A stretch of 64,000 bases of DNA, from the NCBI RefSeq assembly GCF_000174435.1, contig NZ_ACJN02000002.1, forward strand, positions 496,001 to 560,000, in the 5' to 3' direction. The stretch's first letter is position 1; each line of letters begins with the position of its first letter. Under the pieces are notes generated by a model. It searched no databases and was not told the origin of the DNA. It was given only the letters and a program-made list of their open reading frames with translations. Source of the stretch: Desulfonatronospira thiodismutans ASO3-1. GTDB taxonomy: Bacteria; Desulfobacterota; Desulfovibrionia; Desulfovibrionales; Desulfonatronovibrionaceae. The translations under genes and the position numbers were made by a program. This document shows positions 42,389 through 44,975 of this stretch, in pieces.

Positions 42389-42817
42389 TTAGTCAAAATG
42401 ATCCACCCAGGAGGCTGGGGTAATAACGGAACTCCCTGGCCGTGGGTTGTCAATGAGTGGCTTGTCGCCGGTAATAAGAATGGCTTGAGCTTCGTTGGCC
42501 AGGAGAGCCCAAATATGAGAATCCTTGGCATCCGGGGCCGAGTGCTTCGTATCCGCAAGCGGTTCACGCCAGATTGCGTTGGCGGTGATTTCAGTCAGTA
42601 TTGTTTCAATATCAGGGCTGCTTAAGCCATGCAGTCGCGCTATTGCAGGGCGCATAAGTACCTGTTCATACTCCCGTAGAAGTTCAGGGGACAGCAGATA
42701 AACTATTCGTCCCTCCAGCATGGCATCCACGAGCCTGGCGGTAGGTGCGTCAGGTCTGGAAGTAATGACCCCGGCAACCAGGACGTTGGTATCAACGACA
42801 AAGATCCTTCTGATCAT
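42389..42817 (-). CDS. PIN-domain toxin (COG1569-type)
   Basis: The 142-residue protein has the PIN nuclease acid set: VVDTNVLVAGVI at the start, ELLREYEQVL, DAKDSHIWALLANEA and ITGDKPLID. PIN toxins cleave RNA such as tRNA or rRNA. The gene starts at the base where the ribbon-helix-helix gene ends, the usual antitoxin-toxin order. Confidence 0.88.
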   Translation of the reverse strand: MIRRIFVVDTNVLVAGVITSRPDAPTARLVDAMLEGRIVYLLSPELLREYEQVLMRPAIARLHGLSSPDIETILTEITANAIWREPLADTKHSAPDAKDSHIWALLANEAQAILITGDKPLIDNPRPGSSVITPASWVDHFD

Positions 42818-43050
42818 TAATTTCTAAAGGCACGGGTTTCTGCCGTACTCAGGGCCATTGCCTCTTCTTCACTGCAGTTCGCCTGTGAGCGTGCGTGAGC
42901 CACCAGTTGCCGGGCATCATCCATGGACTTTATACCGCGCATATGCAGGCTTTCTTCAATTATCTTGTTTATGCTGCGTCCCTGCCTGGCCGATGTTTCC
43001 TTTAGGGCGCGGTGCAACTCGTCATCAAGGGTAATGGTTAAACGGCTCAT
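42817..43050 (-). CDS. Ribbon-helix-helix antitoxin
   Basis: The 77-residue protein has SRLTITLDDELHRALKETSA followed by RQGRSINKIIEESL, a CopG/Arc-type DNA-binding fold. The tail (about 40-77) should bind and neutralise the PIN toxin encoded directly downstream, and the complex usually represses its own promoter. A ribosome site (GGAGGT) precedes the start on the minus strand. Confidence 0.85.
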   Translation of the reverse strand: MSRLTITLDDELHRALKETSARQGRSINKIIEESLHMRGIKSMDDARQLVAHARSQANCSEEEAMALSTAETRAFRN

Positions 43051-43895: not shown

Positions 43896-44423
43896 TTACA
43901 GACCCTTTCTTTCAAACCAGACAAAGAGAAGAAGTCCGATAATGATAAAGGCAAGGATAACCGGCCAGTGACTGATGTTCAACACCTGGGGCAGGGTGAT
44001 TTTGCCGTAGTCCCCCCAGGCATAGACCGTGTTTTTAAGCACTGGATAGGCTTGGGCGAATACGGCTGCTCCGGCTATCATGCCCAGGATTCCCCACAAA
44101 GCGTCCAGACGGCCTTCGCCAAGAGCCCCGAGAGAGGTCCCTGGACAGTATCCAAGCATGCCCCAGCCCAGTCCGAAAAGGATGGCCCCGATTATGTTGG
44201 CTCCCATGATGGTGGTCTTAATGGACAGATCCACCTGTCCCAGGTCATAGAGAAGATATATTCCCACCATGCTTACCAGGACGGTACTGAACATGAATTT
44301 GATAATGGTCATGTCCAAAAGACGCAGGGCGCCCAGCTGCTTGTCGTAGCGCACCACCCGGGCTTTCTGCAGCAGAAAGCCAAACAGAATGCCGGTAATT
44401 AAGCCGATTATTATAAGTTTCAT
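43896..44423 (-). CDS. YeeE/YedE-family sulfur transport protein, second subunit
   Basis: The 175-residue protein has about five hydrophobic helices and the motif GWGMLGYCPGTSLGALGEG, typical of the half-size YeeE/YedE partner (DUF6691-like). In the larger single-chain YeeE/TsuA, thiosulfate is passed along conserved Cys residues; Cys in GYCPGT is the corresponding residue here. The start ATG overlaps the stop of the upstream UGA-containing partner (ATGA). The pair probably forms one transporter. Confidence 0.88.
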   Translation of the reverse strand: MKLIIIGLITGILFGFLLQKARVVRYDKQLGALRLLDMTIIKFMFSTVLVSMVGIYLLYDLGQVDLSIKTTIMGANIIGAILFGLGWGMLGYCPGTSLGALGEGRLDALWGILGMIAGAAVFAQAYPVLKNTVYAWGDYGKITLPQVLNISHWPVILAFIIIGLLLFVWFERKGL

Positions 44424-44935
44424 GATTTAGCACCTCCATAGATAATCCTGGCCATGATGATTCCGGCACCCAGGAAAAATATCAGGGAGATGAGGCCGCT
44501 GACGGAAAGTTGAAGCGTACCGCTCAACCCGTGTCCGCTGGGTCAGCCATCGGCCATTCTGGCTCCGAACATGGCCACGGCACCTCCGGCAAAAGCCATG
44601 AGGCCGCGCTTGACCGGGGTGAACCCGAAGTTCTGCTGCCACATGTCCGGGACCCACTGCACCTTGAAGGAGCCGGAGGTTCTGGCGGCGATAAAAGAAC
44701 CCACCAGAATTCCGGTGACAAACATCCACTGCCAGTCAACCTGGGGAGCCACCTGGACATAATATTCCAGCTGCTCCAGCCTCTCCGGTGCGATGAGGCC
44801 TTCAATCATGCCTGCTGCTCTGACAAAACTTGTGGATGCTCCGAAATACTGACCGGCTATCCATACGGACAGGATCACCACCAGTCCGCTCAGAGCGCCG
44901 GCCAGATATGGGCTCCATGCTGTACTCTTGGGCAT
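44420..44935 (-). CDS. YeeE/YedE-family sulfur transport protein with in-frame UGA (probable selenoprotein)
   Basis: The frame from ATG 44935 (strong AGGAAGGAGG ribosome site) reads 130 codons to a TGA at 44545-44543, then continues in the same frame for 40 codons to a TGA at 44422-44420. The residues around the first TGA are ARMADG-U-PSGHGLSG. In YeeE/YedE proteins this motif is GC-x-SGHG, so the UGA stands at the conserved Cys. The extension (LISLIFFLGAGIIMARIIYG) is the expected last membrane helix, and the true stop overlaps the next gene (ATGA). A SECIS-like hairpin follows the UGA. Total length with Sec131 is 171 residues. Automated calling would truncate it at 130. A stop mutation is the alternative, but the intact downstream frame and hairpin argue against it. 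Confidence 0.85.
44507..44545 (-). promoter_or_regulatory. SECIS-like element after the in-frame UGA
   Basis: Numbering from the base after UGA, nucleotides 15-34 fold into a hairpin: GUUGA pairs with UCAAC, one U bulges, GCG pairs with CGC, and the tip is GUA with GGU at 22-24. G-U pairs can extend it by two. The stem distance, bulged U and GGU tip resemble the E. coli fdhF SECIS, whose GGU lies at 19-21, although here the bulged U is on the 3' side. SelB would bind it to deliver Sec-tRNA. Confidence 0.65.
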
Positions 44936-44975
44936 ATTACCTCCTTCCTTGAATAAAGTTTGATAATTGAAAAGG

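Follow-up and report, generated by a model that had tools for sequence, protein, structure and literature searches.

A probable selenocysteine-containing half of a split YeeE/YedE-type transporter in Desulfonatronospira thiodismutans ASO3-1

Does the UGA at codon 131 of a YeeE/YedE-type gene in Desulfonatronospira thiodismutans ASO3-1 end the protein, or is it decoded as selenocysteine (Sec)? The gene lies on the reverse strand of the 64,000-nucleotide stretch analyzed here (contig NZ_ACJN02000002.1, positions 496,001 to 560,000), hereafter the window. The source genome has a size of 4.1 Mb and a completeness of 98%, and its nearest relative, G033, belongs to the same genus. The gene spanning positions 44935-44420 very likely encodes a genuine selenoprotein. 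Its product is probably one half-subunit of a heterodimeric importer of reduced sulfur, in which the UGA is decoded with the aid of a downstream hairpin. It is a well-supported further member of the YeeE/YedE selenoprotein family, which was already known and predicted, is uncharacterized as far as we found, and does not constitute a new selenoprotein class. The features are collected in Table 1.

Translation of the reverse strand from 44935 to 44420, with the TGA read through, yields 171 residues, with U131 situated in the sequence ARMADG-U-PSGHG. This TGA is the sole in-frame one before the terminal stop, with 130 codons preceding and 40 following it, and the terminal TGA shares the sequence ATGA with the start of the next gene. 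The single TGA at 44545-44543, the frame remaining open for 40 codons that encode a final helix, and the stop overlapping the next gene had all been noted in the preliminary description, which held up in every respect checked here. The codons beyond the UGA are moreover conserved, and the match to PF04143 (YeeE/YedE) runs across the UGA, covering residues 5-158 with 76.3 bits against the Pfam cut-off of 27. The gene is single-copy in its genome. Two long YedE-type proteins are also encoded there, neither with an in-frame stop: one at L114 390-2670, situated roughly 600 bases downstream of an open reading frame (ORF) that by eye appears rhodanese-like, and a second at L115 1474-2673.

Comparison with homologs places this UGA at a conserved cysteine (Cys) position. 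In a search-biased sample, whose proportions are not population frequencies, the genome collection contributed 44 homologous loci, 27 with TGA at codon 131 and 17 with TGC or TGT (Cys). A TGA also occupies this codon in 18 further relatives from the class of the window, some of which are other copies of collection loci (e.g., L065 and L017), so that the two counts are not additive. All sampled homologs carry either TGA or Cys at this codon, and residue 131 forms an invariant Cys-or-Sec column in 35 aligned proteins. Since the same TGA recurs in so many relatives, a sequencing error is unlikely, and the UGA signal is conserved in many sulfur-cycling bacteria. Over 37 compared codons after the UGA, the ratio of nonsynonymous to synonymous substitution rates (dN/dS) is approximately 0.05-0.16 relative to eight Sec relatives, indicating purifying selection. 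The plasmid collection contained just two weak matches, with less than 60% identity.

A hairpin resembling a bacterial selenocysteine insertion sequence (SECIS) is present at the window gene, even though the preliminary description mentioned none. As in bacterial selenoprotein genes, it lies just 3' of the UGA and has a GU-containing apical loop. Among the rows of the phylogenetic tree described below, a GGU or GGGU loop is found in 39 of 40 Sec forms versus 2 of 46 Cys forms, and a stable hairpin in 38 of 40 versus 2 of 46; mean hairpin energies are -10.0 kcal/mol for Sec forms and -6.1 kcal/mol for Cys forms. In 32 of 34 distinct Sec sequences, versus 1 of 31 Cys sequences, the Gly codon of the loop ends in T, although the protein leaves this third base free (Fisher p 5e-15, not corrected for descent). 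In a set of 21 distinct hairpins, pairing holds in 89.3% of pair cells, compared with 29-49% after sliding of the 3' arm, and double-sided compensatory cells number 9 versus 2.3 expected by shuffling. Three loci (L039, L040 and L043) carry a variant form in which a clean stem, capped by a GGUCUG loop, takes the place of the bulged one. At L052 (5989-6498), a divergent Sec form with the motif GUPLGHG has a 3' hairpin in another register and without the GGU loop; it is a SECIS variant or else a weak example.

The genome also encodes the machinery that Sec decoding would require, including tRNA-Sec (81 bits against a cut-off of 47), selB (377 against 242), selA (606 against 268) and selD (397 against 125). 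The check for selA, selB, selC and selD proposed in the preliminary description was thus positive, and, together with the Cys or UGA found in homologs, it upholds the proposal that a YeeE/YedE-type protein here has Sec in place of its conserved Cys. SelD of the same genome is itself Sec-containing (GAGUASK), and because its gene (L063 1471-2529) requires UGA read-through, Sec decoding is to be expected elsewhere in the genome. The presence of selB does not discriminate Sec from Cys genomes, as it occurs in 76 of 80.

To trace the Sec and Cys forms, a maximum-likelihood tree was built from 87 gene pairs with site 131 masked. At least 10 changes between Sec and Cys are required on this tree (bootstrap range 9-11), at least 5 of which are forced by well-supported branches. 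Given the apparent homology of the Sec hairpins and the presence of Sec in the first branches of the clade, repeated loss from Sec to Cys is the simpler reading of these switches, with the direction not proven. A test of independent pairs gave the expected direction, at 4-5 to 0. Sec and Cys forms occur side by side within genera (L080/L084 and L091-L096). One genus combines a Sec form (L084), two Cys forms lacking the hairpin (L087 and L093) and a Cys form that has it (L080). The Cys gene L080 (1495-1995) retains a stable hairpin of -11.3 kcal/mol with a GGGU loop, for comparison with its close Sec relative L084 (1495-1995), and is a candidate for a relict SECIS after a recent change from Sec to Cys.

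The preliminary description assigned the gene to a YeeE/YedE-type transporter; the family assignment stands through PF04143, while the product corresponds to half of a transporter split over two genes rather than to a complete TsuA/YeeE protein. The profile of the Sec subunit matches residues 237-331 of TsuA/YeeE (E 8e-15), placing U131 on Cys293, and the adjoining partner matches residues 2-113, placing Cys93 on Cys91, and scores 53.3 bits with PF04143. By homology, the Sec gene and its partner are the two halves of a YeeE protein. At every Sec locus where the sequence allowed the check, the partner adjoins the Sec gene and carries its Cys, never Sec. The pair thus has the arrangement of PmpAB and YedE1E2, adjacent genes for the C- and N-terminal halves of YeeE with one conserved Cys or Sec each. 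PmpA and PmpB have been described as two halves of YeeE with a proposed heterodimer, Cys91 and Cys293 being indispensable (PMC11582611). In Cupriavidus, the split pair YedE1E2 imports zero-valent sulfur, requires both subunits, and loses this import upon Cys-to-Ser substitution in either one (PMC10812762). Mycobacterial PmpB-type partners (L058 5275-5742 and L060 5329-5694), encoded upstream of a PmpA-type gene, have Val at the position equivalent to Cys91.

Table 1 Features of the predicted selenoprotein gene and its partner in the window
Feature	Position	Strand	Description
Predicted Sec-containing YeeE/YedE half-transporter (PmpA-type)	44420..44935	(-)	171 aa (amino acids) plus TGA stop; PF04143; TsuA C-terminal-half match
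In-frame UGA, predicted to be read as Sec	44543..44545	(-)	Codon 131, GUPSGHG; equivalent to TsuA Cys293
40 codons 3' of the UGA	44423..44542	(-)	Final membrane helix; purifying selection
Bacterial SECIS-like hairpin	44508..44529	(-)	Positions +17 to +38, counted from the U of the UGA; one-base bulge
Apical end GGUAC	44517..44521	(-)	GGU kept in Sec forms only
Partner half-transporter (PmpB-type, PF04143/DUF6691)	43896..44423	(-)	175 aa; TsuA N-terminal-half match; Cys93 equivalent to TsuA Cys91; ATGA overlap
AGGAGG ribosome-binding site	44940..44945	(-)	5' of the ATG at 44935; read from sequence

These features suggest the following mechanism. We infer from the sequence that Sec would be inserted at residue 131 by SelB and tRNA-Sec, directed by the hairpin, which starts approximately 14 nucleotides past the UGA. 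The Sec subunit would pair with its translationally coupled partner, giving a heterodimeric membrane channel with pseudo-two-fold symmetry. Analogy with TsuA and YedE1E2 suggests that the pore may be lined by the U131 selenol or selenolate and by the Cys93 thiol of the partner, with thiosulfate or sulfane/zero-valent sulfur passing through it into the cytoplasm. Sec would here replace one of two essential Cys residues, offering greater nucleophilicity and acidity and easier regeneration. The heterodimer, its substrate, the direction in which it transports and the benefit that Sec brings are proposed from the related systems. Desulfonatronospira and its relatives are described as haloalkaliphiles that reduce sulfate and can disproportionate thiosulfate or sulfite (PMC6704655), a metabolism that makes a sulfur role plausible.

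Several points weigh against this interpretation. The evidence is sequence-based. The window hairpin alone is just modestly more stable than its shuffles (z -1.87), and an Rfam scan of it gave no match; since it is weak on its own, the case for a SECIS rests on comparison. In the tree, only five phylogenetically independent Sec/Cys pairs lie on well-supported branches, and the sign test cannot reach 0.05. Neighborhood clustering found no conserved sulfur-metabolism neighbor besides the partner, the other clusters being antisense ORFs and the neighboring domains scattered, so that the substrate is proposed by analogy only. The AlphaFold model of the Sec subunit alone is poor, with a mean predicted local distance difference test (pLDDT) score of 67.6 and values below 50 in the Sec loop; it shows about five long helices, compared with four membrane helices in PmpAB and YedE1E2 subunits, and a Foldseek search of the PDB with this low-confidence model returned no match.

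Three other explanations were weighed against a Sec-containing sulfur importer. That the UGA is a real stop, yielding a functional 130-residue protein, a decaying pseudogene or a sequencing error, agrees with standard decoding, which gives a 130-residue ORF. Such a truncation would cost the GxSGHG motif and the last helix, however, and the recurrence of TGA at the same codon in the collection loci and class relatives, the purifying selection past the UGA and the confinement of the SECIS-like hairpin to TGA forms make a real stop very improbable. On the strength of the recurrent TGA, this selection and the TGA-linked hairpin, pseudogene decay and sequencing error were rejected. Still less credible is a different kind of recoding, whether near-cognate readthrough by tRNA-Trp or tRNA-Cys or a genome-wide reassignment of UGA; no support for it emerged, and the site-specific hairpin and the complete Sec machinery speak against it. 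Genome-wide reassignment was rejected, as TGA also serves as the ordinary stop of the same gene.

A further possibility concerns the substrate rather than the codon, namely that the Sec-containing transporter carries selenium, as selenite-derived selenide or polyselenide, and supplies SelD. The partner does weakly match a seleno-YedE model, yet the scores lie far under the seleno-YedE cut-offs (TIGR04112 and NF033796; best 37.8 bits of 200, for the partner, with 21.7 and 28.3 bits of 350). In addition, the class contains many examples of this pair in its Cys form, and no gene besides the partner recurs beside the pair. A selenium substrate is accordingly unlikely, and the selenium handling suggested in the preliminary description found no support. 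We consider it similarly doubtful that the importer is selenium-dependent in a broader sense, with the selenol selecting or moving selenium species, or sulfur uptake tied to selenium supply. Were this true, UGA decoding would make sulfur import in sulfate-reducing and disproportionating bacteria depend on their selenium status.

The proposed Sec-containing half-importer can be set against several described systems. A YeeE/YedE family protein (pfam04143) is tabulated as a predicted selenoprotein in PMC9312934, and a table in PMC13188914 gives a YeeE/YedE predicted selenoprotein with the motif GUxSG and the exemplar WP_012471001.1. The window protein shares with this entry the family (PF04143), the motif (GUPSG here) and Sec at the conserved Cys; the likeness is drawn from the review table entry only, and not from length, pairing or hairpin. 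The family was not found by name in the main texts of two original papers cited in the reviews, and a literature search found nothing linking Desulfonatronospira with selenocysteine. Relative to PmpA/PmpB and YedE1E2, the pair is alike in comprising two adjacent YeeE-half genes with one conserved Cys position each, the Sec position being that of the PmpA Cys, whereas the described members have Cys in both halves and lengths of about 130-150 residues, compared with 171 and 175 here. TsuA/YeeE of Spirochaeta thermophila (PDB 6LEO, 8J4C and 8K1R) is homologous, with U131 equivalent to Cys293 and partner Cys93 to Cys91, and differs in being one full-length chain with three key Cys residues, two of which have identified counterparts here, rather than two chains with one position Sec; the cut-offs of the TsuA models NF052577 and NF041049 were not reached (45.8 of 400 and 36.2 of 645 bits). 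The seleno-YedE/YedE-FdhT proteins belong to the same superfamily and owe their name to a role in selenium metabolism rather than to any Sec of their own.

What the window gene adds to the known family is the split-operon setting, the SECIS covariation and about ten Sec/Cys switches, including a possible relict SECIS. Sec is predicted at one of the two positions that are indispensable in relatives for moving reduced sulfur across the membrane, and the natural Sec/Cys pairs, some within one genus, offer a testbed for the value of selenium at position 131. For automated annotation, caution is warranted, as taking the UGA for a stop would truncate the protein to 130 residues, with loss of the key motif.

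Elsewhere in the window, two small overlapping genes (142 and 77 residues) lie on the reverse strand at 42389-43050, downstream of a nitroreductase gene, and by eye resemble a toxin-antitoxin pair with a putative PIN domain.
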